A stretch of 64,000 nucleotides of DNA, taken from contig JAKAQO010000002.1 in the NCBI GenBank assembly GCA_021822495.1, positions 97,044 to 161,043 of the forward strand, in the 5' to 3' direction. The notes beneath the pieces are model-generated. The model was not told where the DNA came from and searched no databases. It saw only the letters and a program-made list of their open reading frames with translations. A program made the translations under genes and the position numbers. Shown here in pieces: positions 5,881-30,074 of the stretch (its first letter is position 1; each line of letters starts with the position of its first letter). This DNA is from a bacterium. Its GTDB lineage: Bacteria > Elusimicrobiota > Elusimicrobia > UBA1565 > UBA9628.

Positions 5881-5887
5881 ATTTTTA

Positions 5888-7673: not shown

Positions 7674-8236
7674 TGCCAGGTTTTCTCAAGCATTCTTCTG
7701 GACTGCTTAAAGTAAAGGTAGGCGGAACTCCAAGATGAGATGACGCAAACAACCGTCAAAAAATAGGGAATTAAAAGAAGATGAATCACCTCCGCCGGAA
7801 AAAAATCCCTGATCAATAGAAAAACTAACATCGCCAGTATCGAGGCCGATTGAAGGCCCATTTTCCATTTTCCCCAACTTTCCGCCGATGGAACCACCCC
7901 GCCTTTCGCCGCTAAAATTCTAAGCCCCCCCATCAAAAGCTCCCGGATGATGATGAGAAAAATTCCCCACAGCGGAATCCACAGCCCGCTCCGAATGAGC
8001 GCGATCAGGGTTCCGATAACAAGAATCTTATCTGCAATAGGGTCTAAAACTTTCCCAAAGGAGCTGATGGTGTTGGTTGAACGCGCGATTTTTCCGTCAA
8101 ACCAATCGGTCAAAAGGGCGATGACAAAAAAAATAAAGGCGGCGGCGTCCCAAAACGCATTTTTTTGAATGAGAGCGGCAAAAGTCCCCAAAGCGAGGAG
8201 AATGCGAAAAACCGTCAAGCGGTTGGCCAAACTCAT
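7670..8236 (-). CDS. pgsA: CDP-diacylglycerol-glycerol-3-phosphate 3-phosphatidyltransferase
   Basis: PgsA joins CDP-diacylglycerol and glycerol-3-phosphate to make phosphatidylglycerophosphate, the substrate for the adjacent PgpA. The 188-residue polytopic protein carries the CDP-alcohol phosphotransferase motif DG-x2-AR-x8-G-x3-D-x3-D, seen as DGKIARS, then FGKVLDPIADK. Length is normal for the family. It lies 9 nt after rodZ and overlaps pgpA by 4 nt. Other CDP-alcohol transferases share the motif, but the neighbour and the N-terminal LANRLTVFRI favour PgsA. Confidence 0.9.
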   Translation of the reverse strand: MSLANRLTVFRILLALGTFAALIQKNAFWDAAAFIFFVIALLTDWFDGKIARSTNTISSFGKVLDPIADKILVIGTLIALIRSGLWIPLWGIFLIIIRELLMGGLRILAAKGGVVPSAESWGKWKMGLQSASILAMLVFLLIRDFFPAEVIHLLLIPYFLTVVCVISSWSSAYLYFKQSRRMLEKTWQ

Positions 8237-8245
8237 AGGGATTCT

Positions 8246-9139: not shown

Positions 9140-9161
9140 GATTCACCTTTTTACTTAGAGA

Positions 9162-15144: not shown

Positions 15145-15305
15145 CAAAAATTTCGTAAGAGCGCGTCCAAATAGTTTTGGCCATCATTCCAGCGACCAAG
15201 CGTCGGCGAGGAAGTGTGACCGAGGATATCCCGAGGAAATGCCCTTTCCAGAATCTGCGGAAAAACGGCGCGCTTCCAAGTTCGTTGGGGAGCGTCCGGA
15301 AGCCG

Positions 15306-15326
15306 CCTGCCTTCCGGACAGGCAGG
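15306..15326. repeat. Inverted repeat after the ankyrin gene
   Basis: Two 7-bp arms (CCTGCCT and AGGCAGG) pair perfectly around a 7-nt loop, 13 nt after the ankyrin gene stops. No T-run follows on the minus strand, so it is not a typical intrinsic terminator. It could still stabilise the 3' end of the mRNA. Confidence 0.5.
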
Positions 15327-15338
15327 AAATCCAAGCCA

Positions 15339-18035
15339 TCATAATGCCCTTGCCCCGGCTTTGAGGAGCTCGGAAACGATATTCTTATATCCATGTCTAT
15401 TAGCCCTATCAAGCGCAGTGTAATCACACAAGTCTTCTTTGGCATTCACATTCGCTCCGGCTTTGATGAGTTCCTGAACTATTTCCAGATAACCTTCTTC
15501 AGCGGCCAAAATAAGAGCCGTATCCCCATCTTGATTCTTCGCATCCACATTTGCCCCAGTCTTGATAAGTTCCCGCACGACATTAAGATGGCCGTTTGCA
15601 GCTGCCATGTATAGCGCGTCATTTTTATACCCAACATTCATATCCGTCCCGGCGGCCTTAAGAAGTTCTCTCGCAATACCAAGATGTCCTTTCTGAGAGG
15701 CCCTTACGAACGCGATTTTGCCATATCTACTTTTCACATTGACCCCGGCTTTGATAAGTTTTTGTACTAACTCAAGATGCTCCTTCCCAACAGAATCAGC
15801 AACCGACAAAAGCGCCCTCTCACCATTTTCATTTTTTACATCCGCGCCCGCCTTGAGAAGTTCCTGAACTGTTCCCAGATGACCCTTCCCAGCAGCCCGC
15901 ATAAGCGCAGTGTTGCCAAACAAGCCCTCGGCATTTACATCCGTTCCGGCCTTGATGAGTTCCTGGGCCACTTCCACCGGAGCATCCCAAGCGGCCCGAA
16001 TAAGCGCAGTGTCGCCATCGTTATCCTTCAAATTCACATCCGCTCCAGCCTTGAGGAGTTCCTGAACTATCTCAAGGTGACCCTCCCCAGCAGCCCGCAT
16101 AAGCGCAGTACGACCATGCTTATCTTTGGCATTCACATTTGCCCCTGCCTTGAGGAGTTCCTGAACTATCTCAAGGTAACCCTTCTCAGAAGCCCCCATA
16201 AGCGCAGTACGACCATGCTTATCCTTCGCATTCGCATTCGCTCCAGCCTTAACAAATTCTCTCACAACCTCAAGATATCCTTTCTCAACAGCCTCGATGA
16301 ATGCGGCATTTCCAGATATACCTCTCACATTCGCTCCGGCTTTGATGAGTTCATGGACAACCCCAAAGCGGCCATACCGAGCGGCAAAGATGAGCGCAAT
16401 ATTTCCATATTCATTTCCCATCCCTAATTTGATGATTCTTCTGGCATCCCCTGCCGTGGTGGCCTCAATGAGTTTAATGCCTCTATTTCTCCCTTTGACA
16501 TCTGCGCTATTTTCGATGAGTTCCCTTACGCTGCCAAGATGGTCATTCTTAGCGGCCCGAATGAGAGCTGTGTCGCCATATCTACCTTTAGCATCCACAT
16601 CCGCTCCGGCCCTGATGAGTTCCCGAAGCGCTTCCACGCGGCCATTTTCAGCGGCCCGAATAAGCGCAGTGTCGCCATCTCTAGCTCGAGTATTCACATC
16701 CGCCCCGGCTTGAAGGAATTTTTTAAGCATTTTAAGGTTGCCATATTCAGCGAACTTTATGAGCGCGGTATCTCCGTCTTTGTTTTTAACCTTTACATTT
16801 GCCCCGGCTCTGATGAGTTCTCGCACAATATCAGAATCTCTCGCCCCCATGAGCGCAGTGTCGCCATCGTTATCCTTCACATTCACATCCGCTCCAGCCT
16901 TGATGAGTTTTTGAACTATCTCAAGGTGACCCTCCCCAGCGGCCCGCATAAGCGCAGTATGGCCCTGTGAACCTTTGACATTCGTATTCACTCCAACCTT
17001 GAGGAGCTCCTGAACTATCTCAAGGTGACCCTCCCCAGCAGCCCGCATAAGCGCAGTACGACCATGCTTATCTTTGGCATTCACATTTGCCCCTGCCTTG
17101 AGGAGTTCCTGAACTATCTCAAGGTAACCCTTCTCAGAAGCCCCCATAAGCGCAGTACGACCATGCTTATCCTTCGCATTCGCATTCGCTCCAGCCTTAA
17201 CAAATTCTCTCACAACCTCAAGATATCCTTTCTCAACAGCCTCGATGAATGCGGCATTTCCAGATATACCTCTCACATTCGCTCCGGCTTTGATGAGTTC
17301 ATGGACAACCCCAAAGCGGCCATACCGAGCGGCAAAGATGAGCGCAATATTTCCATATTCATTTCCCATCCCTAATTTGATGATTCTTCTGGCATCCCCT
17401 GCCGTGGTGGCCTCAATGAGTTTAATGCCTCTATTTCTCCCTTTGACATCTGCGCTATTTTCGATGAGTTCCCTTACGCTGCCAAGATGGTCATTCTTAG
17501 CGGCCCGAATGAGAGCTGTGTCGCCATATCTACCTTTAGCATCCACATCCGCTCCGGCCCTGATGAGTTCCCGAAGCGCTTCCACGCGGCCATTTTCAGC
17601 GGCCCAAATGAGCGCTGTGTCGTTATCCTTATCTCTGGCATTGATATCCGCCTCAGATTTAATGAGTTCCTGAACTATCTCAAGGTAACCCTTCTCAGAG
17701 GTCCACATGAGCGCTGTGTAGCCATATCTACTTTTAGCATCCACATCCGCTCCGGCCTTGATAAGTTCCTGAACTATCTCAAGATGACCTTCTCCAGCAG
17801 CCCGCATAAGCGCAGTGTGGCCATATATACCTTTGACATTCGTATTGGCTCCAACCTTGATGAGTTTTTGAACTATCTCAAGGTGACCTTCCCCAGCGGC
17901 CCGCATAAGCGCAGTGTGACCATGTTTATCCTTCGCATTCACATCCTCCCCGGCTTTGATGAATTCTTTGAGCCTCTCAGGGCGGCCATTCCGAGCGGTC
18001 TTAATCAACATTTCATTCTTATCGTTAATATTCAT
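15339..18035 (-). CDS. Giant ankyrin-repeat protein
   Basis: This 898-residue protein consists almost wholly of about 33-residue ankyrin repeats (pattern DGDTALIRAAENG, then a leucine-rich helix, then LIRAGADVDAK), more than twenty in series. There is no signal peptide or membrane helix, so it is probably cytoplasmic and makes protein contacts. A 598-bp block occurs twice in the gene, 948 bp (316 codons) apart. The ATG has a GAGGG sequence about 9 nt upstream and lies 23 nt after the MBL nuclease gene, as last gene of a seven-gene run. It may be a sensor or scaffold for the upstream AAA+ and nuclease proteins; that is inference. Confidence 0.9.
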   Translation of the reverse strand: MNINDKNEMLIKTARNGRPERLKEFIKAGEDVNAKDKHGHTALMRAAGEGHLEIVQKLIKVGANTNVKGIYGHTALMRAAGEGHLEIVQELIKAGADVDAKSRYGYTALMWTSEKGYLEIVQELIKSEADINARDKDNDTALIWAAENGRVEALRELIRAGADVDAKGRYGDTALIRAAKNDHLGSVRELIENSADVKGRNRGIKLIEATTAGDARRIIKLGMGNEYGNIALIFAARYGRFGVVHELIKAGANVRGISGNAAFIEAVEKGYLEVVREFVKAGANANAKDKHGRTALMGASEKGYLEIVQELLKAGANVNAKDKHGRTALMRAAGEGHLEIVQELLKVGVNTNVKGSQGHTALMRAAGEGHLEIVQKLIKAGADVNVKDNDGDTALMGARDSDIVRELIRAGANVKVKNKDGDTALIKFAEYGNLKMLKKFLQAGADVNTRARDGDTALIRAAENGRVEALRELIRAGADVDAKGRYGDTALIRAAKNDHLGSVRELIENSADVKGRNRGIKLIEATTAGDARRIIKLGMGNEYGNIALIFAARYGRFGVVHELIKAGANVRGISGNAAFIEAVEKGYLEVVREFVKAGANANAKDKHGRTALMGASEKGYLEIVQELLKAGANVNAKDKHGRTALMRAAGEGHLEIVQELLKAGADVNLKDNDGDTALIRAAWDAPVEVAQELIKAGTDVNAEGLFGNTALMRAAGKGHLGTVQELLKAGADVKNENGERALLSVADSVGKEHLELVQKLIKAGVNVKSRYGKIAFVRASQKGHLGIARELLKAAGTDMNVGYKNDALYMAAANGHLNVVRELIKTGANVDAKNQDGDTALILAAEEGYLEIVQELIKAGANVNAKEDLCDYTALDRANRHGYKNIVSELLKAGARAL
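16060..16657. repeat. Intragenic duplication, copy A
   Basis: A 598-bp block that by eye matches 17008-17605 base for base. It encodes about six ankyrin repeats. The copies are in the same orientation and 948 bp apart, so the frame is kept. The first mismatches flanking the block are at 16059/17007 and 16658/17606. Confidence 0.9.
17008..17605. repeat. Intragenic duplication, copy B
   Basis: Second copy of the block at 16060-16657. The lack of visible mismatches in such a repeat-rich gene suggests a recent unequal exchange or ongoing gene conversion. Confidence 0.9.
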
Positions 18036-18058
18036 GGCGTTTTCCCTCTAACAGCCTT

Positions 18059-19387
18059 TTAACTCCGTTTAGGAATCTCAAAAACCTCGTTATCTTTAAG
18101 AACATCGACGAAACTCCCAAACTCGTTATAACCTTCCGGTTCACAAGTGTGGATAGGGATGAGACGTCGGGGATTGAGCGCTAAAGCCAGGCGGTTGAGA
18201 TCTGCTGGTGACGCATGTCCGCTCGTGTGCGCATTTTCAAGAGCGATTTCATGTTTATCCAGAAAGGCTTGGACCTTTTTAAAAGAATCGTCCTTTTTAT
18301 AGCCCTCATACATCGAATAAATCATGACCGCGTCCTTAAAATTCTTGATAAGCTCAATTTTAGATTTCGATGTTTCCCGGTAAACCACGATGAAACGTCC
18401 CGGGGAACGGGCGATTTCTCGAAAGTTGATTTCAAAGGGATTACATTTTTTGAGAAATTCTTTGTGCTCGCTATTCAGAAGCTTCCTCGCATGAGGCTTA
18501 GTGTAAAGAACCCTGAAATTTTTCCAGCTGGAAGCCGGATGCGGCAAGGTGGAAACCTTGAGCGAGTCGAGAACGTAGGCGGTATAGAGATCAACGACCA
18601 AATGGCTTTTTGTTTGCAATGCCGCGCGGTAAAGGCCGACGATCCTATCGATATTTTGCCCTGAGACCATAACGAGCTTAAGGCCCTTATATTTCTTGAC
18701 GAGATAAATGATGTCTATTTCGATTTCCTGTTCGGTCTTGAATTTTTCGGCGCTTCGCCCCAGGGTGGTGCCTTCCATAATCAGCGCGTCCACCGGCGCG
18801 GGAGGATGGGAGATCAAATCCTCGAAAAGTTTGCTCTTTCTCCCGTGGGCGCGGAAATCCCCTGAGTAAAAAATGCTTTTGCCTTCGGCTTCGATTAGGA
18901 AAGCCATCGCGTCAAAAGCCGAGTGATCCATGAGGTATGGGGTCACGCGAAAATCTCCAATTTGAACGGGCTTTTTATTTTTCAGCGGTTTTCTTTGGAA
19001 ATTCCGAATATTAAAATTGGAGTGTGAAAACATACTCGACGCCTCGATCAGGACCTCGGTCTTGGAACCGAGGTAAATGGGAATCTCCGGATTGAGGTAT
19101 TCCAAAAATCCGTAGTGGTCCTGATGCGCGTGGGAGATGAGAACGGCTTGCGGCGGCGGAGCGTCTTGAACGTTTGCGTAGAGCCCCGGAACCTGCGGCA
19201 GGATTTTTTCATCGAGAAGCTGCCGCGGGGTTTTACCCCGAATAGAGAGTATCTCAAACCGCGCTTTTTTGTCTCCGGGGCTTACCAGCGGGACCCCCAA
19301 GTCGAGAACAATCCGGGATTTCCCCGAAGTAATCTCGACACAGGAGCCCCCGATCTCATGCGTCCCGCGACGGATAATGAGGTTCAT
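18059..19387 (-). CDS. RNase J-like metallo-beta-lactamase/beta-CASP nuclease
   Basis: A 442-residue MBL-fold protein. The metal site is seen as SHAHQDHYG (HxHxDH), YLMDHSAFDA and IFYSGDFRAHG. Beta-CASP features follow: VMVSGQN, HTSGHASP (the SGHA motif of RNase J) and a final LIPIHTCEPEGYNEF with the last His. RNase J is usually about 550 residues, so its C-terminal domain is missing here. The family are RNA or DNA nucleases. ATG 19387 overlaps the upstream stop (ATGA); a TTG nine bases earlier is less likely. It is coupled to a possible PD-(D/E)XK gene and followed by the ankyrin gene, so this is an accessory enzyme and probably not the housekeeping RNase J. Confidence 0.85.
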   Translation of the reverse strand: MNLIIRRGTHEIGGSCVEITSGKSRIVLDLGVPLVSPGDKKARFEILSIRGKTPRQLLDEKILPQVPGLYANVQDAPPPQAVLISHAHQDHYGFLEYLNPEIPIYLGSKTEVLIEASSMFSHSNFNIRNFQRKPLKNKKPVQIGDFRVTPYLMDHSAFDAMAFLIEAEGKSIFYSGDFRAHGRKSKLFEDLISHPPAPVDALIMEGTTLGRSAEKFKTEQEIEIDIIYLVKKYKGLKLVMVSGQNIDRIVGLYRAALQTKSHLVVDLYTAYVLDSLKVSTLPHPASSWKNFRVLYTKPHARKLLNSEHKEFLKKCNPFEINFREIARSPGRFIVVYRETSKSKIELIKNFKDAVMIYSMYEGYKKDDSFKKVQAFLDKHEIALENAHTSGHASPADLNRLALALNPRRLIPIHTCEPEGYNEFGSFVDVLKDNEVFEIPKRS

Positions 19388-20073
19388 TCGGGCCAATAAC
19401 CTCCAACATAATCAATTTTGCTTTCACTCAGGCGATCAGCAGAGGCCAATATAATTCGAGCTTCGGTTTTTTCAGCCATAAATTCAATGAGCTTAAGAGC
19501 TTTTTGGAGCCTATTATCTCTCTTTGATGTTGGGTAAAAGTATTTGTGTGGAGCTAACACCATTCCCCAGGCGCCTTTAAAATCTTTATCATTGAAAAAC
19601 TGTTTAACATTTCCAACATTTGCCCGAAGCATACGGACCTGTTGCAAGTTTTCGACAACGGCAAACCAAACATCATTCGCGGTTATTTTAACCTCAACCG
19701 CGAGTGGATGGCTGACTGACCTTCTATCTTCCACCCTCCCGAGACAATCCGGTATCACTTGTCCACGCCGTTGGGTTCCCAGTGCCATGTTATGCGCCAC
19801 TCCGTATATATCCAAATGCTTCTTGGGGAGCCGGGAATTGTTGACTAGAAGATGTTTTCTTTCCTCATTACCTATGTTTAGAAATTTATATTCTATGCAT
19901 TTTTCCCCTTTCACTTCCCCGCTTTTTCTATATCCGAAAATACCTTTCCATTCCTCCCGATTGAGTCCATCACGAGGACTAGTTTTCCACATTTTCAAAA
20001 CATCTTTATAATTGCCGGCATCTTCCCTAAGTTCTTTCCACTGATCAGACCAGTCCTTGAATTCCATTTTCAT
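19384..20073 (-). CDS. Unknown protein, possible PD-(D/E)XK nuclease
   Basis: I do not recognise the family of this 229-residue protein. Its central part reads VIPDCLGRVEDRR, then HPLAVEVKITANDVWFAVV, which fits the PD-x(n)-ExK active site (Asp in IPDCL, Glu and Lys in VEVK) followed by an amphipathic helix (ENLQQVRML). Many restriction-like nucleases look like this. The N-terminus is Trp/Lys/Asp-rich (KDWSDQWKEL) and soluble. The stop overlaps the MBL nuclease start by 4 nt. The fold assignment rests on the motif alone and needs structure-based searching. Confidence 0.5.
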   Translation of the reverse strand: MKMEFKDWSDQWKELREDAGNYKDVLKMWKTSPRDGLNREEWKGIFGYRKSGEVKGEKCIEYKFLNIGNEERKHLLVNNSRLPKKHLDIYGVAHNMALGTQRRGQVIPDCLGRVEDRRSVSHPLAVEVKITANDVWFAVVENLQQVRMLRANVGNVKQFFNDKDFKGAWGMVLAPHKYFYPTSKRDNRLQKALKLIEFMAEKTEARIILASADRLSESKIDYVGGYWPE

Positions 20074-20091
20074 ATTCCCTCCTCCTTTATT

Positions 20092-20433
20092 TTATTTTCG
20101 TTTATTGCAATGAAGATCGCATGAGACAAAAATCCCCGGGGAAACTTCCCGCATTTTGGGAAATAAAACGGAACCGCTCATGTCTCCCACCCGCCCGTCT
20201 TGAAATCTCACCAGAGGGCTTCTTTCGTTTTCAAAAACTGGCGACGGGCTTTCTCCGGAGGAAGCGGGCAAATAATATTTCTTGACGACGACCCGGCGAA
20301 TGACGATTGGGCGCGCGGCGGTTTTGTTTTCGTGGACGGCGATGCTCTCGGGATTTTTGCGCTGATTGACGAGCGCCCCGAAACAAAGAGTCGAAAAAAC
20401 GGCCCCAATAGACGCGATGACTTTCATATTCAT
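20092..20433 (-). CDS. Small exported or membrane-anchored protein
   Basis: A 113-residue protein starting MNMKVIASIGAVFSTLCFG, which looks like a signal anchor, followed by a basic Val/Arg-rich stretch (IVIRRVVVKKYYL) and a C-terminal part with two cysteines (VSCDLHCNKRK). A GAGGGAG sequence lies about 10 nt before the ATG. It lies 47 nt after the previous small membrane gene and 18 nt before the next gene, inside the same run. Family and function are unknown. Confidence 0.55.
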   Translation of the reverse strand: MNMKVIASIGAVFSTLCFGALVNQRKNPESIAVHENKTAARPIVIRRVVVKKYYLPASSGESPSPVFENERSPLVRFQDGRVGDMSGSVLFPKMREVSPGIFVSCDLHCNKRK

Positions 20434-20480
20434 GTTAGTGTGCTCCCTCTTTTAATGTTTGTCAATGTTTGTTTCATGGC

Positions 20481-20711
20481 TCAAAGCTTTTTGATAAATT
20501 CCTCGGCGGAATGGGACAAAATAAGTTTTTTTGCGAGCGTCCCAGACTCCGCAATGGGAGGGGTTTTGGAACGGCTCTTTTGCGGCTTCCCATTGACCAT
20601 CCAATGAACGAGCAAAATAGCCCCCGCGATCACGGGTCCGCCCATAATTGTGGCCAGCATAATGACGGCGCACGCGACGAAAAAGAAAAAACCTTTCCCT
20701 GTCTTTTTCAT
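20481..20711 (-). CDS. Small membrane protein
   Basis: A 76-residue protein: a basic start (MKKTGKG), a long hydrophobic region able to form two helices or a hairpin (FFFFVACAVIMLATIMGG, then AGAILLVHWMV), and a hydrophilic tail. It starts 9 nt after the AAA+ gene stops. A different frame at 20452-20724 also overlaps that stop, but it is Arg/Phe-rich and lacks a plausible domain. Function unknown; a membrane anchor for the AAA+ complex is possible. Confidence 0.55.
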   Translation of the reverse strand: MKKTGKGFFFFVACAVIMLATIMGGPVIAGAILLVHWMVNGKPQKSRSKTPPIAESGTLAKKLILSHSAEEFIKKL

Positions 20712-20720
20712 TTTTTTCTC

Positions 20721-22238
20721 TCATGCGTTGGTTCCATTTTCCAGGAAGTCCAACTTCGAGACAAACCTCTCATCTTCGGGCTCAAAGATGATTTCCTCGG
20801 GCTCATTTTGTCTTTCCCCGGGCTCTCGATTAAACAAAAAAGGCGAGAGATTAGACTCTAAAATTCGCTTAAGGCCGCGCGCCCCGGTTTTATTTTTGAG
20901 GGCTTGTTCCGCCACCCATTCGATCGAGGCGGGAGGAATTCTCAGATTGATTCCGCTGGCCTCAAACACGGCTTGATACTGGCTGATTAAATTATTTTTC
21001 GGCTTGGTCATGATATTGACGAGGTCTTCTTTCTCCAAGGAGTTTAAAACGATGAAATCGGCGAAGCGGCCGATAAACTCCGGCATGAAACCGTAGGCCT
21101 GAAGGTCTTCCGTTGAGACCTGGCTTAAGATATTTGCGTCGTTTTTGGCGTTTCTCTCGTTTAAAAATCCAATTCCGCGTTTTTGGATTCGAGCCTTGAT
21201 GATGTCTTCAAGGCCCGAAAAAGCCCCGCTGACGATAAACAAAATCCCGCTCACATCAAAGCTTTTTCGCCCCGAGACCACGATTTCGCCGTCTAGCATC
21301 TTCAACAATTCCTGTTGAACGGAAAGACCGGCGATATCGCGGCCATTTGAATTCTTATGCGCGATTTTGTCTATTTCATCAATATAGATGATGCCTTGCT
21401 CCGCCCTGTTCATATCATGGTTCGCCTTTTCGTAGAGATCATGGAGCATGCCGTCGACATTAAAACCGACGTATCCTGTCTTCGTGTACTGCGTGGCGTC
21501 GCAAAACGCAATGGGAACGTCCAAAACTGCCGCCAAGGCTTTGCAGAGATGGGTTTTTCCAGATCCAGTCGGCCCAATCATGAGAATATTGGTCTTTTGA
21601 ATCCTATCGAGCCCTTTTTTCTTTTTATTGAGCTTAGAGACTTGGAAATGTTTAAACGCCGCTATTGAGAGGGCTTGTCTAGCTTTTTCTTGTCCGCTTG
21701 CGTAGCGGCTGAGCTTCTCATAAATCGCGGAAGCCGAAAGCCGGCTTGATTTTGAGCGGGTCTTGGGAGACTTTTCTTCCAAAATATATCGCAGAATCTC
21801 ATCTTCAAGAACGAAATATTTCCCAACATAATTGTGCTCATTCAGAGTAACAATCTTTTTCTTGAGGAGATTGGATTGAGGGTACAGGTATTTCATAGCC
21901 GCGATATGTTCATCCGCCTTGTCATAAGCGATGAATTTTCTGAGGTTGTCCGCGCGATATAATTCCTCGCGCCCATAAACCGCCGCGAAAACGAGCGCCC
22001 ACAAAATCATGGCTTCCCCGTCGTCGAGTTTGTGTTTTTTGATTAGCTTTTCCATTCGGATATCCGCGCCCTTTTGAACGGCTTCTTGCGCGCGTTTTCG
22101 GATGTCAGCGCGGATTTCTTTGAGGGTTTCCCATTCCGAACTCTTTAAGGTTCTGGGACAAGAATCCTCTCTTGGTCCCAGAAAAAGGCGAACGAACGAA
22201 AAACAATCGTCAAGATAATTTCTATTTTCTTGGTTCAT
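20721..22238 (-). CDS. ClpX-like AAA+ unfoldase with a novel N-terminal domain
   Basis: The 505-residue protein has a C-terminal ClpX-type ATPase. It shows Walker A GPTGSGKTHL, the pore loop GYVGFNV, Walker B GIIYIDEIDKIA and the sensor-2 region TGARGLKRILE. The IGF tripeptide used by ClpX to dock ClpP is kept (KRGIGFLN). The ClpX zinc-binding domain is absent. In its place are about 170 residues of helical sequence (DGEAMILWALVFAAVYGREEL and onwards) that I do not recognise. The start lies 17 nt inside the upstream gene and has a GAGGA sequence. It may feed a target to ClpP, or unfold a partner encoded in the same operon. Confidence 0.85.
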   Translation of the reverse strand: MNQENRNYLDDCFSFVRLFLGPREDSCPRTLKSSEWETLKEIRADIRKRAQEAVQKGADIRMEKLIKKHKLDDGEAMILWALVFAAVYGREELYRADNLRKFIAYDKADEHIAAMKYLYPQSNLLKKKIVTLNEHNYVGKYFVLEDEILRYILEEKSPKTRSKSSRLSASAIYEKLSRYASGQEKARQALSIAAFKHFQVSKLNKKKKGLDRIQKTNILMIGPTGSGKTHLCKALAAVLDVPIAFCDATQYTKTGYVGFNVDGMLHDLYEKANHDMNRAEQGIIYIDEIDKIAHKNSNGRDIAGLSVQQELLKMLDGEIVVSGRKSFDVSGILFIVSGAFSGLEDIIKARIQKRGIGFLNERNAKNDANILSQVSTEDLQAYGFMPEFIGRFADFIVLNSLEKEDLVNIMTKPKNNLISQYQAVFEASGINLRIPPASIEWVAEQALKNKTGARGLKRILESNLSPFLFNREPGERQNEPEEIIFEPEDERFVSKLDFLENGTNA

Positions 22239-22764
22239 GGCTTGATTCCTCCTCCACTAAAATATCCCGGAGATGTTGATGGGCTGTTTTATCCAAGCGC
22301 GTAATTAAATTATCGCCGGGAATGCCGATGTCTTGCCAGATATCACGGTGGCTGATTCCCGCCCTTTTTCCGGCGCTGTCCATGGTCTTAGACATGGAGC
22401 CGCGACACCCCGCCAGGCTTTGATTTAAACCGTGTCCATCTTCCTTATTAAAAGCGTTCCAATGGTTTTTCCGCGCTTCCCTCATGGCGGCCTCGCGCAT
22501 CTCCTTGCGAGTGGCTTCTCCTTTTTCGGATTTCGCGAGCAATTTGAGGATCGCGATTTGCGTGGGAACTTTTCCGCAACGATCGACAATCTCTTGCATG
22601 ATTTCCCGGCTGACCAGCCCTTTTTGAGGTTTTGCCTCAGGAGCAGCCGCCGAAGGTAAAGCGACTTTCTCAACGATAAGCCGCGCGAACATCTCATGAA
22701 TTTTTTCGTCGTCTGACTCGATGTTGATGGTGGTGTCATTTATTTTTATCGTAGTTGTTTTCAT
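22222..22764 (-). CDS. Unknown protein, first gene of the AAA+/nuclease/ankyrin operon
   Basis: A 180-residue soluble protein starting MKTTTIKINDTTINIESDDE, a beta-type N-terminus like that of small DNA-binding or adaptor proteins. The middle (GKVPTQIAILKLLAKSEKGE, then ATRKEMREAAMREARK) could form a winged helix with a charged recognition helix. I recognise no family. It may be a regulator or substrate adaptor for the AAA+ protein whose start it overlaps. The ATG lies 10 nt after a -10 box, with no ribosome binding site, so the mRNA may be almost leaderless. Confidence 0.55.
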   Translation of the reverse strand: MKTTTIKINDTTINIESDDEKIHEMFARLIVEKVALPSAAAPEAKPQKGLVSREIMQEIVDRCGKVPTQIAILKLLAKSEKGEATRKEMREAAMREARKNHWNAFNKEDGHGLNQSLAGCRGSMSKTMDSAGKRAGISHRDIWQDIGIPGDNLITRLDKTAHQHLRDILVEEESSHEPRK

Positions 22765-22772
22765 AATGTTTC

Positions 22773-22803
22773 ATAGTGTAATATACTATTTTCACTTTGT
22801 CAA
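22773..22803 (-). promoter_or_regulatory. Strong promoter with overlapping inverted repeat
   Basis: Minus strand: -35 TTGACA (22798-22803), a 17-bp spacer, and -10 TACACT (22775-22780). An interrupted palindrome at 22773-22789 (ATAGT and ACTAT arms, 7-bp centre) covers the -10, a likely repressor site. Directly upstream is a hairpin with 6-bp arms AGGCCC and GGGCCT (22803-22819). The start codon is 10 nt past the -10. Confidence 0.7.
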
Positions 22804-23072
22804 GGCCCAAAAAGGGCCTAGATGATCCAGAAGCAAGCTGGCTTACTCGATGATTATATACGTTTGCCTCTAAAATTTTGCAAAAAAGAGGATATTTTTA
22901 GGGGAAATAAAAAAATCGTGGAGCTTTTACAGGCCCCAAAGGCCAATGGGAAGCCAGAAGACTAAGTATTTTTTCCTTATTAATATAAGGATTTGACTCA
23001 CTTTCTGTTAAAAACCGCCGGGCAAAGCGTTCATTCTACCGCAACTCCGAGAAAAGTATAAAAATCCCCCAT
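22804..23072. other. Intergenic region upstream of the operon promoter
   Basis: Together with the promoter this is a gene-free stretch of 308 bp. It is AT-rich. Besides the AGGCCC hairpin it holds an inverted repeat CCTTAT-TAAT-ATAAGG at 22975-22990. I see no ORF with protein-like composition, no tRNA and no clear terminator for the upstream DUF2130 gene. Confidence 0.5.
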
Positions 23073-24299
23073 TCATCGGATAGGTTCGGAATTTCCCGCG
23101 CTGTCAACTTCGTCATGCGCGGACATCTCAAGAGACGCAATGGGCGCAAGCTGAGTTCCGATAAGCCCCTGCAAATCGCCGTACATTCCCGAGGTATTGT
23201 GAATAACCCGCTCAATCTGCTTTTCCCGCTTGGCCCAGGTCCGTTCCATGGCGCGTTTTTCGGAATCGAGATCGCCCTTCATCGCCACGAAGGCTTCCAC
23301 GATGGCTTCAATCCGGTGCCGAAACTCCGACCCTGAAAGGTATTGGTAAATCAATTCCATCTTCTCGCCTTTGCCGGCCATGGCGTTTTGCGCCTGCGCC
23401 AGTTGGGCGATGCCGGCGCGCAACGCTGTCGCAAGTCCGACTAAAGACGCGAAATCCGTCACCCAAATGCCTTCATATTGTCCGATATGATGAATGCCTT
23501 TTGGCAGGACCGCGGAAACAATCACCCCGAAATCAGCCTTGGCCTCTCTCATGTCGTCCTTGAGCTTTTGAATCCAAGCGTCAGACCAAGCCTTTGTGCG
23601 CTTGGATTCCCAAAGAATGCTTCCATGAATTTTTCCGGAAGAAGAGCGCACTCGTTGAAAGGCGTCCGCGCCGCGCACGCCCTTGGCAACCGGCTCGATC
23701 TCGTCAAAACGGAAACTGGAGCTAAGAATTTCTTCCAGCGCCAGCTCTTGAACTTCCCCCTGAGACTGTTGCGAACCCTGCTCGGCTTTTCGTTTTAAAT
23801 CCTCAATTTGACGGCGCATGTCCTCAAGCTGCTTGTCTTTTTCGCGTTCGCGCAGATGATGTTCCTCGGCGGCCTTGGCGAGAGCGTCCTCGCGGATTTT
23901 AGCGCGTTCGGTATCGAGCTTTCGTTCAAGCTCCAAGGCCAAGCTCCGTTCGCGGTCTTCAAGCTCTCTTTGCTTCTTGCGCAAAGCGAGTTCTTGCTTT
24001 TGGGCCTCGTCTAAAAGTTTTGCCTTCTCGGATAATTCGGACCGCAAGTCCTTCATATCCTTGGCGAGAGCCTCTTCGGCCCGCTTTTTCGCGGCTTTTT
24101 CCAGAGCGGCGCGTTCCCCGGCGAGTTCTTGAGCGTGTTCTTTTTTAATGGCCTCGATGGCGGCTTCATGCTCGCGCTCTTTCCGTTTGTTCTCGGATTC
24201 AAAATCATTGCGAAGCTTTTCCTCGATGGGATGCGTCAACGCCTCGGTCAGAAGAATTTTCTTTCCGCAATGGGGACAAGTTATTGATTGGTCAGTCAT
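23073..24299 (-). CDS. DUF2130 family coiled-coil protein
   Basis: A 408-residue protein beginning with a half zinc-ribbon (ITCPHCGKK), then about 150 residues of highly charged coiled coil. The conserved DUF2130 domain follows (EIEPVAKGVRGADAFQRV, then GSILWESKRTKAWSDAWI, then ADFGVIVSAVLPKG). The ILWESKRTKAW segment carries the ExK of a PD-(D/E)XK-like core. The family is widespread and uncharacterised, often near DNA-processing or defence genes. A GAGAGG sequence precedes the ATG. It has its own intergenic regions on both sides. Confidence 0.85.
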   Translation of the reverse strand: MTDQSITCPHCGKKILLTEALTHPIEEKLRNDFESENKRKEREHEAAIEAIKKEHAQELAGERAALEKAAKKRAEEALAKDMKDLRSELSEKAKLLDEAQKQELALRKKQRELEDRERSLALELERKLDTERAKIREDALAKAAEEHHLREREKDKQLEDMRRQIEDLKRKAEQGSQQSQGEVQELALEEILSSSFRFDEIEPVAKGVRGADAFQRVRSSSGKIHGSILWESKRTKAWSDAWIQKLKDDMREAKADFGVIVSAVLPKGIHHIGQYEGIWVTDFASLVGLATALRAGIAQLAQAQNAMAGKGEKMELIYQYLSGSEFRHRIEAIVEAFVAMKGDLDSEKRAMERTWAKREKQIERVIHNTSGMYGDLQGLIGTQLAPIASLEMSAHDEVDSAGNSEPIR

Positions 24300-24844
24300 A
24301 AGAAACCTCTCATTTTATCCAAATGTTGATGGATAACGATCTTAAGCCACCGTCTTTTTACGATCTTTCTAAGTCCAAAGACGCCTTCCGCTTCTGCCGA
24401 ACCCGCCAGTTGCGAGCCCAGTCCAAGGCCGTATATCCTGATTTGTGCCGAAGGTCAAGCCTGTCCCCAGGGCCAATTAAGGTCAGAGCAATTTCCGCGT
24501 GTCCGCAGGGAAATTATTATAATGCCTCTTCCAGATTAAATTAGTATAAAGCCCAAACTGAATGTTGTCAATAGAAATTGCCTATCGCCGCTGGCGTCAA
24601 TGTAAATCTAGGCATCCTCCAAATGTTCGCGAACATTCAAAAACACCAAATGGGTCGCGTATTTGCAGAATGATTCCCTAACCTTAAAACCCAGGTTATT
24701 GCCGGTCGGTTCGGCCAAACACTACGTCGCAGAAAAGTCAAAAAGCTACCGGGCGGCCGCTTTCGGCGGATCGATCAACTCGCACTGGCGACGAAGGCCA
24801 ACTGACTCCCCCAACGATGCTACCAGGTCTTGAACGGGCTAGGG
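24300..24844. other. 545-bp gap holding a decayed DUF3800 gene
   Basis: No intact gene is seen. The only recognisable content is the minus-strand DUF3800 remnant at 24575-24700. The plus-strand frame at 24323-24544 has no recognisable domain. The left part lies upstream of the DUF2130 gene and probably holds its promoter (GGATAAAATGAG near its start). Confidence 0.6.
24575..24700 (-). pseudogene. DUF3800 gene fragment
   Basis: The minus-strand translation (GFKVRESFCKYATHLVFLN, then VREHLEDA, stop, IYIDASGDRQF) aligns with residues of the intact DUF3800 protein at 28675-29319 with about seven differences in 39, one being an in-frame TAG. Similarity ends at both sides. It is a decayed second copy in the same orientation. 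Confidence 0.85.
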
Positions 24845-26449
24845 CTAATCGATATTTACGCCGTTTCCCTCCAGGATTTTTTTCAACTCGGTAGCGTTAA
24901 TCTCAACCTCATGGTGCCACTCAATCAATTTCACTTTCGCCTTCCTACACTTCAGGCGTTTGCGCTGGTCCCGCTCCTGGTTTTCTCTAAATTGGCTCTC
25001 ACCTCCAAAATAATCCACGGCTTCAAAGTGCTGGCTCCCTTGGTATTCAATCGCAATGTCCAAGCTAGGAACAAATATATCGAGGTGCTGTGGGCTGAGC
25101 CATTTCGGACGAAAGTGCTGAAGGGCATCAGGGAAGAGCCCCTTCACCAAGTTAAATAGTCGAGTCTCTGACACCCAGCCCTCGCCGATCTTTGGCAAGC
25201 CATGCTTTTCCCGAAGTCGATTTTCGGCATCTCTCAAAATTTCATCACAGACATCGAGGAAGGGGTTGCGATCAAGCATCATGTACGCAGTATCGATGTG
25301 GTATCCGCTGTGCCCCCGTATAACCTCATAAAGTTTCTTTCCACCAATTTGGACGAAATTACCCGTGTAGGAAATCCCGTCCGTCCAGGCAAAGCTCTCT
25401 TTGACATCTCCGGCCTTTAGCTCGTTGAGCGGCACCTTCTTGTTTTTCCGGAAGCAACATTCTTCGAGCTTCGATACTTCATAATTTCGATCAACAACGA
25501 GTTTCTGATGGGCGCCCGGGGTGAGGACCACGAACGGTCTTTCGGGAACTTCACTCTTGAAAACATATCTCCGCGTACATAGAAAGGGATTAGGGAATTC
25601 GCCGAAAAGCCGACCTTCCTTGACTTCGCCTTCTTGGCAATAGGATCTGGGCGCCTGAATCAATGGAAGCTTAAATCGGTGAACATGCCCGCGTGAATCG
25701 ACCCGTACCGCCCTTCGGTTTCGTTCTCGGATATCCTTTTCGATCCCCTCCATAGTGGGAGCTTCTTCCATGAGGACATCCGTCGCAGTGGGTTTCCCAC
25801 AGGAATGTCGCTCTCTTAGTTCTGCGTCAATTTCCCGGACATAGGCATCGACGTTTTCAACAAGAAAGCGATCCATGGATGATTTCGGGCGAGAGAAAAG
25901 AATATCCCTGCCGGCGAGCTCTTTACCAGCCAAGCGCTTTAGGTAGACCAACTCGGGATGTAACGGACCGTAATACTCATTTCCGAGGTTCCTGTAGTAC
26001 ACCGTCAGCGCCGTCTCGTAGTCTCGTCTTTCGATAGCCTTCCGGATGACTTCGTAGTTACTGACCGGGTCGGGAGGCCGCTTTTCTGAAAACCCCAGCG
26101 TTCCGTAGTCGTCTATCACCTGGGCGTACCCGTGCGTGGCCAGTAGCCGCATAATATCCTGCTGTTTCTCGTAAAACAATCCGGGCCCGACGTAGACGTT
26201 ATTGCGGAACTCCGATTCGAACCATTTCCTCGGCAACCGATCATAGCCCAGCCGGAAGGACAGCTTGGAGATGAACGCAAGAAAATCAATATCGGTATCC
26301 TCAACGGTTAATTCGTAATAAAGCTTTTTGGGGTCACTCCCATTGACGATCCTTAGCCCACGATGCCCCTCAACGGCTTCCATGACTTGTTGAAAGCGCT
26401 TGCTCTTCGAAGGGCCAAAATAGAGCTTAAATTTTCCCATACCATGCAC
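24845..26449 (-). CDS. Unknown large protein with a C-terminal Vsr/PD-(D/E)XK-like nuclease domain
   Basis: A 534-residue soluble protein. The last 100 residues contain HLDIFVPSLDIAIEYQGSQH, then FEAVDYFGGESQF, then QERDQRKRLKCRKAKVKLIE. This is the pattern of Vsr-like or DUF559-like endonuclease folds: Asp in LDIF, Glu in IEYQG, then a helix with a basic patch. The first 430 residues are unfamiliar (GKFKLYFGPSKSKRFQQVM and onwards). The GTG at 26449 overlaps the stop of the upstream frame (TAGTG); ATG 26440 is an alternative start. It is probably a two-gene unit with the upstream frameshifted gene, and a defence role is possible. Confidence 0.6.
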   Translation of the reverse strand: MHGMGKFKLYFGPSKSKRFQQVMEAVEGHRGLRIVNGSDPKKLYYELTVEDTDIDFLAFISKLSFRLGYDRLPRKWFESEFRNNVYVGPGLFYEKQQDIMRLLATHGYAQVIDDYGTLGFSEKRPPDPVSNYEVIRKAIERRDYETALTVYYRNLGNEYYGPLHPELVYLKRLAGKELAGRDILFSRPKSSMDRFLVENVDAYVREIDAELRERHSCGKPTATDVLMEEAPTMEGIEKDIRERNRRAVRVDSRGHVHRFKLPLIQAPRSYCQEGEVKEGRLFGEFPNPFLCTRRYVFKSEVPERPFVVLTPGAHQKLVVDRNYEVSKLEECCFRKNKKVPLNELKAGDVKESFAWTDGISYTGNFVQIGGKKLYEVIRGHSGYHIDTAYMMLDRNPFLDVCDEILRDAENRLREKHGLPKIGEGWVSETRLFNLVKGLFPDALQHFRPKWLSPQHLDIFVPSLDIAIEYQGSQHFEAVDYFGGESQFRENQERDQRKRLKCRKAKVKLIEWHHEVEINATELKKILEGNGVNID

Positions 26450-27142
26450 TATTGGCCGCTTGTGCCTTCTGTAGGTTGGGGTGACTCAAAAATACGATCA
26501 CGTGCGATGACATATCGAATGAAAAAATTCCCAAGCTCCGTAACACCGTGAGTTCCTTCAACAGTTGAAGCTATTCCGAACTCCACCAGCAAACCGACAT
26601 TTTCAAGACTGGCGCGAGTTTCATTACTGAAATTCTTTGGTGTTGGATCATGTCCCAAGATCAAGAGATCTGGAAGAAACGCATGATCGATTACCATGAG
26701 GAAGCGTAAGAGCATCATTAGGTCGATTCTTTCCCTAATATACGCCAATATACGCCCCAAAGGCATTCGCCATCAACATAGGCTTCTCTAAATCATCCAT
26801 CCGGGAAAGAGACAAAAGCAATGCCTCACTGACACGCTTTTTGGTTCTACGATCATTATCCAGCTTCTGGAGGAATGTTTTTCTCTCAGACTCGGATACT
26901 TCCTTCAGAGACGTCAGGAAACGAATTATCTTGACGACAAATAAGCGTTCGCTGAGGCCAACACCCATTTGCCCTAGAGCAACCAAATTTTTGACTATCG
27001 GGACGTTGTGCAGGATACCATCTTTCAAGGTCTGATCGAGTAGCGCTTGGCTCGTGCTCGTCAGAATCTCAAACCCACCATCCTTGAGCAATGCGCTGAG
27101 CAACGAGTCTTCAGTTGAATCTTCCATCATCTCTGTATCCAT
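26449..27142 (-). pseudogene. Unknown gene frameshifted by a 10-bp tandem duplication
   Basis: Two overlapping frames make one protein if a single copy of a duplicated 10-bp unit (26737-26756) is removed: KPMLMANAFGAYI joins directly to RERIDLMMLLRFLMVID. The repaired product would be 227 residues, soluble and mostly helical. As read, translation ends soon after the duplication at residue ~135. I chose ATG 27142, which has AGGTGA 5 nt upstream. Family unknown. It directly precedes the nuclease-like gene, so the frameshift may also disturb coupling. Confidence 0.8.
26737..26756. repeat. 10-bp perfect tandem duplication
   Basis: AATATACGCC occurs twice in direct succession (26737-26746, 26747-26756). 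Because 10 is not a multiple of three, it shifts the reading frame of the gene on the minus strand. Confidence 0.95.
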
Positions 27143-27194
27143 AGCGTTCACCTAACTGACGTTCCCCAATTGACTGGAGCATTGGAACGCGAAC

Positions 27195-27242
27195 TCAATT
27201 GACATCGGAAAGTTCGTAAGATTCGCTTTGCGTTTTAGCCAT
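27195..27242 (-). pseudogene. N-terminal scrap of the same gene start as 28379-28576
   Basis: The 15-codon frame MAKTQSESYELSDVN matches the start of the 65-residue frame at 28379-28576 (MAKTQSEAYEFSDAE). About 39 nt are shared with three differences, then similarity ends. It is a duplicated 5' end of a probable type III methylase gene with no remaining body. Confidence 0.75.
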
Positions 27243-27244
27243 GG

Positions 27245-28318
27245 TCAACCCTGCATGATTTCCAGTAACTTGTGATTGATAAAGAGATGATATTTGCCCA
27301 CGCGCCGCTCCTTGAGGATTCCGCCTCGCACGAGATTTTGGAGGTATTTGCTGGCGGTCATATAGTGGATGTCTAATTTTTCCGCGAGCCGCGCGGGAAT
27401 GATGATAGGATAAGTGAAAAGGGCTTGCGCCAAGTCAGCGGAATAGATGACCTTGTGATCCTGTTTTAATTTCTGGCGCAGTTCCCCAAACAGAAGCCCA
27501 ATTTTCTCCAGAATAGCCGTGGTTTGTTCGGCCTGGTGGGCAAAACCCTCAAGCATGAAGGAAATAAACCCTCGCCAATTTTTGGATTGCGTCACCTCTC
27601 GCAACAAACGGTAGTATCGCGCGCGACGCTCGTTGATATAGCCGCTGATATAGAGAATAGGCAACGGCAACAACCCCTCCTGGACCAACTGGCAAACCAT
27701 CAGAATTCTACCCGTGCGGCCGTTGCCGTCTTCAAACGGGTGGATGGCTTCAAATTGGTAGTGGGCAATGGCGCACTTAATGAGCGGGTCAAGATCAGAC
27801 GGCGCGTTCACGAACTTTTCCCAGTTGCCCATCAAACGCGGTATTTCCGTTCGTAGCGGCGGCGTGTAGAGAACTTCTCCCGTCGCATCGTTGGCGATGC
27901 GGTTTTGCTGCTGCCGGTAGCCTTCGGCTCTTTTCGGAAGAAGAACTTTCTCGATTCCAAGAATGATCCGCGTTGAAATAGGAGCGCGTTTCATCCGCTC
28001 AAAACCCCAAAGAATGGCGTCCCGATAGCGCAACACTTCTTGATCGGGCTTGCGTTGTTCGGACTCAGGAAAAAGCTGTCCCTGAAGAGCTTCTACAATC
28101 GTTGTGTTGATGTTCTCTATGTTGGAACTGGCCACGGCTTCCTTTAAGATTGCAGGCGAGAGAAGCAACATCGGATTGGGATGAAAACGACAAGACCCTT
28201 TGAGTTCAGCCATAGCCGTTCGCGCTTTTAAAAGCAGGTCGACATAATCTCCGTTCGCAATAGCAGTATCCGGCGGCAAAAAAGACAGAGAGTGGGGATG
28301 GGTCGGGTCAAGCGACAT
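27245..28318 (-). CDS. Fic family protein with C-terminal winged helix
   Basis: Fic enzymes usually transfer AMP from ATP to target proteins. The 357-residue protein has the catalytic motif HPFEDGNGRTGR and an N-terminal inhibitory motif (S/T)xxxE(G/N), seen as SSNIEN, so it belongs to the self-inhibited class II. The N-terminal DUF4172-like part contains FHPNPMLLLSPAIL. The C-terminus is a winged helix (HYMTASKYLQNLVRGGILK) that may bind its own operator, which lies just upstream. Fic genes often sit within type I and type III restriction loci, consistent with the methylase and endonuclease remnants around it. Confidence 0.92.
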   Translation of the reverse strand: MSLDPTHPHSLSFLPPDTAIANGDYVDLLLKARTAMAELKGSCRFHPNPMLLLSPAILKEAVASSNIENINTTIVEALQGQLFPESEQRKPDQEVLRYRDAILWGFERMKRAPISTRIILGIEKVLLPKRAEGYRQQQNRIANDATGEVLYTPPLRTEIPRLMGNWEKFVNAPSDLDPLIKCAIAHYQFEAIHPFEDGNGRTGRILMVCQLVQEGLLPLPILYISGYINERRARYYRLLREVTQSKNWRGFISFMLEGFAHQAEQTTAILEKIGLLFGELRQKLKQDHKVIYSADLAQALFTYPIIIPARLAEKLDIHYMTASKYLQNLVRGGILKERRVGKYHLFINHKLLEIMQG

Positions 28319-28327
28319 ATCAATAAG

Positions 28328-28360
28328 AGTATATCGAAAATTTAAATTAATTTCAATATA
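28328..28360 (-). promoter_or_regulatory. fic promoter with overlapping operator-like inverted repeat
   Basis: Minus strand: -35 TTGAAA (28351-28356), 17-bp spacer, -10 TATACT (28328-28333). Ten-base arms at 28330-28339 and 28351-28360 form an inverted repeat with one mismatch around an 11-bp centre and cover both boxes. The ATG is 9 nt past the -10 with no ribosome binding site. Confidence 0.7.
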
Positions 28361-28378
28361 TCGTAATGCCCTGACTTT

Positions 28379-28576
28379 TCAAGCCATTCTCTGATACTCG
28401 GTAAAACTCGCGGCAAGAGCCGCGAATGTCCGGGGTTGATGCCGCTTAAAACTCTCCTGGTCAACGTAAAGAAAGCGGTGTTTATCGGGCAGCGGCTTGC
28501 CTTCATTAATTAACTTAATGATATCCCGCCTCTCGGCGTCGGAAAATTCGTAAGCTTCGCTTTGCGTTTTAGCCAT
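28379..28576 (-). pseudogene. N-terminal remnant of a type III DNA methylase gene
   Basis: The 65-codon frame starts MAKTQSEAYEFSDAERRDII and continues KLINEGKPLPDKHRFLYVD. From memory this matches the N-terminus of type III (Mod-like) DNA methyltransferases, which continue for hundreds of residues. Here the sequence ends in LAASFTEYQRMA, encoded by a 34-nt repeat that also ends the endonuclease remnant at 29313-29537. A TATAAT at 28605-28610 lies upstream. An intact small protein cannot be ruled out. Confidence 0.55.
28391..28424. repeat. Junction repeat, copy A
   Basis: A 29-nt perfect match (34 nt with one mismatch) to 29331-29364, same orientation. On the minus strand it encodes LAASFTEYQ at the end of the methylase remnant. 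Confidence 0.9.
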
Positions 28577-28674
28577 GCTTGGAAAATTATCCGTTCCTGT
28601 CTATATTATATGCTATACTGTCTTTAAGAACCTGAACTCCGAACTGCCACCCTTGGTGCGCGTGCCTGAAAGGG

Positions 28675-29319
28675 CTAGGACTCAGGTTCATCGTTTTTTA
28701 GACCCGGCCATATTTGCAACCCTGCTTCTCTCATACGAATCAGTCTGACATAGACCTTCGCGTCCGCTTTTCCGCTGTAACTTCGATGAATGGAACCCGA
28801 CACCATATCGGCCAACTGAATGAGATTGTGTTTCTTAGAGTCTAAGAAAGCAACCTGCTCAATGTGCCGCTTTTTATGATTGATTTTCTTTTTGAGGTAA
28901 GTGTTAATTTCCCTCCGAAACTGCCTGTCACCACTAGCGTCAATGTAAACCCGAGCGTTCTCTAAGTGTTCGCGGGCGTTCAAAAACACTAGCTGAGTCG
29001 CATATTTATAAAAGGATTCCTTTACTTTAAAACCCGGGCCATAGAGCCCTGATTTATTAATCACGATCCCATAATAAAAGAAGCCATACGGCGCCATCGC
29101 CTGCAAGAAAGCCATCCTATGTTCAGGCCGGCATTTATTGAACTTAAACTCAAATTGCGGATGGAGATTCAACTCTCTCCGGAGAAGACTAATTCGCTGT
29201 TCTACCGCTTTCGCGTCTTCCTGGTCCTCAAAAACTACCAAGGCAACCACGAAATAAGCCGATGAACCTTGTGCTAACTTAAGCCCCGCATCGCCGGATT
29301 CATCGACGTAAACTAACAT
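28675..29319 (-). CDS. DUF3800 family protein
   Basis: A 214-residue protein beginning MLVYVDESGDAGL, the standard N-terminus of DUF3800, which has an RNase H-like fold; a metal-dependent nuclease role is predicted but untested. Other conserved parts are FEFKFNK, VYIDASGDRQF and LIQLADMVSGSIHRSYSGK. Acidic residues in DESGD, IDASGD and LADMV form the probable active site. The longer frame to 29388 is rejected because it reads through the junction repeat. There is no ribosome binding site before the ATG. DUF3800 is frequent in defence islands. Confidence 0.85.
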   Translation of the reverse strand: MLVYVDESGDAGLKLAQGSSAYFVVALVVFEDQEDAKAVEQRISLLRRELNLHPQFEFKFNKCRPEHRMAFLQAMAPYGFFYYGIVINKSGLYGPGFKVKESFYKYATQLVFLNAREHLENARVYIDASGDRQFRREINTYLKKKINHKKRHIEQVAFLDSKKHNLIQLADMVSGSIHRSYSGKADAKVYVRLIRMREAGLQIWPGLKNDEPES

Positions 29320-29537
29320 GACGAAAGAGACTGATACTCGGTAAAACTCGCGGCAAGAGACGCGCCCGCGTAGCCAGATTCTCGCCAAGCGTGGACCTCG
29401 CGGCGGATGTTGGCGACCAAGGGCGGAATGAGTTTATCGTAAGCCGTGGCGCGCAAGGTCTCATCCGCCGGAAACCAACGCTCTTCGGGGATGAGCGGAT
29501 CATACGGCGAATTTGGAAAATTGGGATGAAGGGCCAT
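29313..29537 (-). pseudogene. N-terminal remnant of a type III restriction endonuclease (res)
   Basis: The 74-codon frame starts MALHPNFPNSPYDPLIP and continues EERWFPADETLR, then PPLVANIRREVHAWRESGYA. This is the characteristic N-terminus of type III restriction Res subunits, which should continue for about 900 residues with helicase motifs. It stops after GAS and runs into the junction repeat (LAASFTEYQ), then a stop. No helicase motif survives in the window. Confidence 0.8.
29331..29364. repeat. Junction repeat, copy B
   Basis: Second copy of the 34-nt repeat at 28391-28424. It lies between the truncated res frame and the start of DUF3800, marking the deletion or insertion boundary. Confidence 0.9.
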
Positions 29538-29630
29538 TTTTTAAATTCTATCAAATACCGCCGGACCAACTTCGCAGATAGAGCCGCTTCCGAGTTCAAA
29601 ATGAAGAGGCCGATTTATTCCCTGATGGAG

Positions 29631-30074
29631 TTACTGGAGGTGTTTAAGGGCTTTGAGGGCAACGCGCCTGACTTCGTCGCGTATCTCGCGGGAAGCGAGG
29701 TCTTTGGGTGAGAACCATTTCATGCCGCAACTTTCCTTAACTGAGAACTTTTCCCGGCCTCCAATGGGTTTGCAGAAATAAACGAGATCAAAATGAATCC
29801 CGTGTCCCGGAAGCGTTTCCATCTGGAAGTGATTGGGCGCGTGAAGAAAAAAAACGTCTTTTTCTTTAGGGGCGGGAGAAATAAGGGGCGAGATGATTTT
29901 GACTTTAAGTCCGGTTTCTTCTCTGACTTCTCTGAGTAGCGCTTCAACCGGGGTTTCGCCTTCTTCGATGTGTCCGCCCGGAGGAAGCCAGAAGCCTAAT
30001 TTCTTATGGAGTAAAAGAAGCGTTTTTCCGCCTTTAACGACATATCCGGTCGCGACAAAATGCGCGGGCATCAT
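29631..30074 (-). CDS. Nudix hydrolase
   Basis: A 147-residue Nudix protein starting at ATG 30074, overlapping the hydrolase stop by 4 nt. The Nudix box (GX5EX7REUXEEXGU) is complete: GGHIEEGETPVEALL then REVREETGL. It hydrolyses a nucleoside diphosphate linked to another group; the substrate cannot be read from sequence. The rest of the domain (HFDLVYFCKP, MKWFSPKDL) is regular. A longer frame to 30287 only reads through the upstream gene. Confidence 0.9.
   Translation of the reverse strand: MMPAHFVATGYVVKGGKTLLLLHKKLGFWLPPGGHIEEGETPVEALLREVREETGLKVKIISPLISPAPKEKDVFFLHAPNHFQMETLPGHGIHFDLVYFCKPIGGREKFSVKESCGMKWFSPKDLASREIRDEVRRVALKALKHLQ

Follow-up and report, generated by a model that had tools for sequence, protein, structure and literature searches.

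The question raised by this locus is which of seven closely packed genes form the working core of their operon, and what that core does. The window, that is, the whole stretch of 64,000 nucleotides analysed here, comes from an elusimicrobial genome and carries seven minus-strand genes which, in order from the promoter, encode P180, a ClpX-like AAA+ protein, TM76, TM113, N229, a metallo-beta-lactamase-fold (MBL) protein and ANK898 (Table 1). All genes were located and their spacing was checked, and the compact arrangement reported in the initial annotation stands: every gap between genes is below 50 nt, and the reading frames of P180 and the ClpX-like protein overlap by 17 nt. The start of the MBL gene was moved from TTG 19396 to ATG 19387, giving a protein of 442 aa, because the N-terminus then agrees with those of its relatives and the N229 stop and MBL start overlap as ATGA; the two nuclease-like proteins were correctly described as having overlapping reading frames. 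A DUF2130 gene lies upstream of the operon, while ribosomal protein S15 and PNPase are encoded downstream. The “strong promoter” with a palindrome on its -10 was recovered in part. Both sequences are present, with the hexamers TTGACA-17-TACACT at 22803-22775 and the imperfect palindrome ATAGT-N7-ACTAT at 22789-22773, covering the -10. The strength, in turn, denotes a consensus match only, since promoter-like sites in the region barely exceed those of shuffled sequence (14 found versus 9.6 +/- 3.0 expected, a slight excess).

Table 1. Features of the operon and its surroundings (positions in the window).
Feature	Position	Strand	Description	Basis
P180	22222..22764	-	Predicted winged-helix protein with N-terminal beta-hairpin	AlphaFold model, structure comparison, G042 homologue
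ClpX-like AAA+	20721..22238	-	N-terminal winged-helix domain PF22977; IGF and GYVG loops	
TM76	20481..20711	-	Small; hydrophobic stretch	Sequence
TM113	20092..20433	-	Small; N-terminal hydrophobic stretch	Sequence
N229	19384..20073	-	PD-(D/E)XK-family; predicted active site E57, D109, E127-x-K129	
MBL	18059..19387	-	Beta-CASP metallo-beta-lactamase-fold protein, 442 aa	
ANK898	15339..18035	-	Ankyrin-repeat protein	Pfam Ank families, internal duplication
Promoter-like TTGACA-17-TACACT with palindrome over -10	22773..22803	-		Consensus match
Accessory block	15149..29640		Operon, DUF2130, endonuclease-like gene, Fic, DUF3800	Sister genomes compared

The ClpX-like protein is one candidate for the centre of the system. 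It shares with ClpX the AAA+ architecture, with Walker A (GPTGSGKT, 222), the pore loop GYVG (255), Walker B (IDEID, 286), the IGF loop (356) and sensor-2 (GAR, 452), and the Gly-Phe of the IGF loop is invariant in four homologues. It differs from ClpX in having no CxxC in its first 160 residues, hence no zinc domain, and in carrying at its N-terminus the winged-helix domain PF22977 (33.1 bits, cut-off 27) in place of it; its scores also fall below both curated ClpX equivalog cut-offs (334.9 versus 359 bits; 302.6 versus 370.75 bits). The earlier description of an AAA+ protein that retains the IGF and pore loops and has lost the zinc domain is therefore accurate. In the genome of the window this is the single ClpX-like protein found, with no canonical ClpX and with two ClpP-like genes. 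The closest homologue (46%) is encoded in another genome, G023, in a different operon, beside CHAT-like and sigma-like genes assigned by eye. Farther along the same G023 locus (L033, 2161-10912), a beta-CASP MBL is fused to the CRISPR-associated Cas_APE2256 domain. The ClpX-like protein was rejected as a conserved centre, because the relatives yield mainly ordinary ClpX proteins or AAA+ proteins that are only distantly similar, and its nearest homologue belongs to another operon.

The AlphaFold model of P180, analysed by structure comparison, contains a beta-hairpin and a winged helix, and the protein is probably the regulator of the operon. A homologue with 41% identity was found in one other genome, G042, where it stands upstream of a PD-(D/E)XK and MBL pair and the ClpX-like gene is absent. 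Neither the 294 genomes searched from the phylum nor the viral contigs contained further relatives, and P180 was thus rejected as a widespread marker. The G042 promoter region bears a different palindrome, ACAATATT-N4-AATATTGT, at a different position, and an operator common to the two P180 loci is not supported. Regarding the small proteins, neither TM76 nor TM113 matched a family in the model collections searched; TM76 probably forms one membrane helix, and the N-terminal hydrophobic stretch of TM113 may be an anchor or a signal. The ankyrin gene contains an exact 598-bp duplication (17605-17008 and 16657-16060, 948 bp apart), in keeping with its earlier portrayal as “fast-changing”. This duplication overlies 99-bp repeats, and may represent either a recent expansion or a question of assembly. 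PADLOC matches of ANK898 to PDC-M72A and MzaA were dismissed as generic ankyrin-repeat similarity.

The constant member of the adjoining gene pair is the MBL protein. It matches Pfam Lactamase_B_2 at 2e-16 and RMMBL weakly, and its closest solved structure is the uncharacterised EF2904 (2az4, 3e-29), followed by RNase J and CPSF. The metal ligands (HxHxDH and a further His and Asp) and the beta-CASP motifs A, B and C are kept in 80-81 of 81 sequences, which supports a beta-CASP nuclease-type protein with predicted nuclease activity. Although it shares the MBL fold and these motifs with RNase J and CPSF73, the protein, of about 440 aa, reaches only 61.8 bits against the RNase J model TIGR00649, for which the curated cut-off is 400, and is not an RNase J by score. 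The motif C residue is His, as in RNA-type beta-CASP enzymes. No other RNase J-like protein was found in the genome of the window, and none above the curated RNase J cut-off.

The gene preceding it encodes N229, which alone matched no family in Pfam or the other family model collections searched. Among 67 diverse aligned partners of MBL proteins, however, the sole invariant columns are D109, E127 and K129 of N229, and the acidic residue E57 of helix 1 is conserved in at least 90%; since these residues form the catalytic signature, the family is assigned to PD-(D/E)XK. Individual partners match the Pfam models PDDEXK_9, YhcG, HSDR_N, EcoRII, NucS and Shedu, and the partner-family profile matches the solved chains of NucS and Shedu (8ps4) at 8e-5. 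The AlphaFold model of N229 has the alpha-beta-beta-beta-alpha-beta order (H56-66, E88-94, E110-115, E121-128, H135-151, E169-174). Its confidence is moderate (mean pLDDT 69, core 74-89), so the fold is claimed mainly because motif, profile and model agree. By structural alignment the top matches are NucS (Z 9.6, 2.5 A over 108 residues) and EndoMS (Z 9.5), below which mostly PD-(D/E)XK enzymes follow, including Shedu at Z 5.9. Used on its own, Foldseek returned nothing significant for the N229 or P180 models, and the structural conclusions are drawn from the conserved motifs, the profile matches and a comparison with VIA-align. The earlier suggestion that the 229-residue protein is nuclease-like gains from the expected topology, the NucS and EndoMS alignments and the invariant catalytic residues; a PD-(D/E)XK-family protein with a nuclease-type fold is supported, and nuclease activity is predicted.

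To follow this pair across genomes, 84,980 species genomes were scanned with the MBL alignment, and the best 80 of 381 relatives, from many phyla, were examined by using a partner profile built from genes upstream of MBL. In 67 of these 80 best loci (of 381) a PD-(D/E)XK-family gene directly adjoins the MBL gene: it lies upstream, ending just before or inside the MBL start, in 60, and directly downstream in 7. Nearly all upstream partners (57 of 60) fall between -25 and +40 nt relative to the MBL match start, with an overlap usually of 1-13 nt. Six of the seven downstream partners constitute an independent test of the profile, because they were left out of its building; the seventh, L055, a gene of genome G003, was included. 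The simple motif D..ExK is present in 54 of 68 upstream genes versus 50 of 343 other neighbours. A partner was undetected in 13 of the 80 loci (best 80 of 381), some of which are broken by contig ends. Co-occurrence across genomes had been put forward as the check on the proposed operon, and it holds for the PD-(D/E)XK and MBL genes, while P180 and the ClpX-like protein are mostly found apart. Judged on gene content and sequence, the core of the operon is the overlapping pair of N229 and MBL, and not the ClpX-like protein.

Other genes recur beside the pair. Three unrelated loci have a metallophosphoesterase-like gene that overlaps the MBL gene (L131, 10215-10859; L132, 10455-11024; L114, 6207-7004), and DUF2130 (RmuC-like) genes are near the pair in three loci (the window, 23073-24299; L062, 9624-10964; L110, 5248-6486). 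In the sister species G003, the pair has as its neighbour a separate operon (L044, 9100-13406) that encodes a further PD-(D/E)XK protein, an AAA+ protein and an ankyrin-caspase (Peptidase_C14) protein; this operon also stands near a truncated second MBL copy. The accessory genes of the window (P180, ClpX-like, membrane and ankyrin) are, as far as these gene neighbourhoods indicate, variable additions, with similar kinds of parts recurring without a fixed set.

These comparisons bear on the idea that the whole operon is one integrated seven-gene device with the ClpX-like unfoldase as its central effector. The close gene spacing and single promoter are compatible with it, as are the retained IGF and pore loops in a genome that has ClpP and no canonical ClpX, and AAA+ genes whose winged-helix-like N-domain scores just below the Pfam cut-off do occur downstream of the pair in L052 and L053. 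The parts, however, mostly occur separately: P180 and the pair are together in G042 without the ClpX-like gene, G023 has its ClpX-like gene elsewhere, and most loci have the pair only. An integrated device is thus very unlikely, and the fixed sensor, unfoldase and nuclease device first proposed is not borne out, the ClpX-like, P180, membrane and ankyrin proteins not being constant partners.

The two genes of the core also appear to differ in their inheritance. In four comparisons (L098/L088, L090/L107, L110/L097 and L054/L058) the MBL proteins are 84-88% identical and their partners have little or no detectable similarity; the DNA similarity of these loci, of 82-89%, begins at the MBL start. 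Considering all 69 locus pairs with MBL proteins at least 68% identical, which draw on 22 shared loci, mostly of metagenome-assembled genomes, and are not independent, partner similarity is undetectable in 51, and each of these 51 has a DNA alignment that begins -16 to +6 nt from the MBL match start. The data agree better with a replaced upstream gene than with gradual divergence, given that other locus pairs, such as L090/L098, retain both genes. Hence, the PD-(D/E)XK gene appears to be exchanged wholesale between genomes while the MBL gene stays constant, with the reservation that, as most loci are metagenome-assembled, some apparent exchanges and cross-phylum identities may reflect mis-binning. 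A constant MBL with a swapped partner suggests an immune or conflict system.

The genomic context of the pair is mobile. Plasmid copies occur near restriction-modification genes, near TniB/TniQ and CcdAB, and near WYL and DUF262 genes, and 6 of 8 plasmid loci have a profile-detected partner adjoining or close to MBL. Viral contigs carry one pair that is flanked by tail genes and two that have serine recombinases as neighbours. Tail-gene regions are a place where phages often carry additional defence genes. The pair amid tail genes is that of L136 (region 1510-9900). The 14.5-kb block 15149-29640 of the window is missing where it would be expected in two sister genomes; in the sister G004, the gene positioned at 37480 in the window comes immediately after S15. 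Rearrangement as well as insertion is indicated, because the block at the right edge sits elsewhere in the sisters. The accessory block also holds a Fic gene (27245-28318) and a DUF3800-IX RNA (Rfam RF02968, 28629-28692) that overlaps the end of a DUF3800 gene (28675-29388). Across loci, known defence genes around the pair include restriction-modification, reverse transcriptase, PsyrA, AbiEi and WYL genes, with housekeeping genes too, and enrichment is not claimed since the neighbour list has no background set for comparison.

Two overlapping genes in mobile, plasmid or phage locations, together with the likeness of P180 to a winged-helix regulator, would also suit a toxin-antitoxin or plasmid/phage addiction pair, in which one nuclease, most simply the RNA-type MBL, is toxic and the other protein or P180 restrains it. 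We regard this as unlikely. Catalytic residues are kept in both partners, whereas antitoxins are usually not enzymes, and partners are swapped without co-variation of the MBL, whereas toxin-antitoxin pairs normally co-evolve.

A second alternative is a pair for DNA repair or nucleic-acid processing whose mobility is incidental, composed of a NucS-like endonuclease and an SNM1/Artemis-like or RNase J-like processing enzyme. NucS/EndoMS itself is a single-gene mismatch-repair enzyme, not known to have an MBL partner or partner exchange. The structural proximity of N229 to these mismatch endonucleases, along with a sequence profile match, agrees with such a role, and so do the DUF2130/RmuC-like genes that the window, L062 and L110 have close to the pair, and the lack of another RNase J-like protein in the genome of the window. 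Yet patchy presence, plasmid and phage carriage, and a PD-(D/E)XK partner that diverges extremely and is replaced are unusual for repair enzymes, and the motif C His is that of the RNA-type beta-CASP enzymes. A repair pair is likewise rather improbable.

Among defence systems, Shedu (SduA) resembles N229 in its PD-(D/E)XK core, in the 8ps4 profile match and in being highly variable outside the catalytic core. Nonetheless, the NucS matches are equal or stronger in both sequence and fold, N229 is paired with a separate beta-CASP gene, and SduA_C gave no Pfam match for N229 and one among 67 partners, at 0.0046. The nearest published idea is that of HamM and protease pairs. In Hachiman, AVAST, Lamassu and DRT systems, HamM is the MBL-fold nuclease that accompanies a trypsin-like protease, and, as in the window, an MBL-fold nuclease gene pairs with a partner gene; HamM has been acquired repeatedly (PMC12799240). 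It differs in its likeness to ComEC-type MBL hydrolases and its protease-fusion partner (PMC12799240), whereas the pair described here combines a beta-CASP MBL with a PD-(D/E)XK protein. No family of PADLOC-DB 2.0.0 matched N229, MBL or P180 at E 0.01, neither PADLOC nor NCBIfam has a model that refers to the pair, and a full-text literature search drawing mostly on papers outside subscription yielded no description of it. From these searches and comparisons, the nuclease pair is widespread, mobile and apparently undescribed.

The core is read as a mobile two-gene nuclease module, most likely serving defence against phages or other mobile elements, a reading in which we place about even confidence; the best reading would be a modular anti-mobile-element system. 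More tentatively, the core may be a widespread and so far unrecognised immune module in which a constant beta-CASP enzyme accepts interchangeable PD-(D/E)XK partners and recombination at the gene junction changes target or trigger specificity, with a single effector retained. The pairing, active-site conservation, partner exchange and mobile context are read directly from the sequences; that the proteins are active nucleases, form a complex and serve defence we infer, as we do each step of regulation in the following scheme. The exchangeable PD-(D/E)XK protein, here N229, would be translated together with the constant beta-CASP MBL and would set what is recognised, either cutting invader nucleic acid or signalling to the MBL. 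The latter, RNase J/CPSF-like and with the motif C His, would degrade the product or cellular RNA. P180 probably represses transcription of the operon, and the winged-helix ClpX-like unfoldase, with the ClpP of the cell, would probably remove P180 or another inhibitor upon a trigger, while the membrane and ankyrin proteins may sense or scaffold. The place of P180 and the ClpX-like protein in this scheme is weak because they are rarely found with the pair.

If this proposal is true, the pair would represent a module for defence or conflict that many bacterial phyla share and current tools miss, because its MBL member reads only as “MBL fold metallo-hydrolase” and its partner has diverged until just a few residues are invariant. 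The clean swap of one enzyme ahead of the other would offer a direct way to test how immune specificity changes hands, and the version with the ClpX-like protein would be an example of a proteolytic unfoldase joined to a module of this kind.
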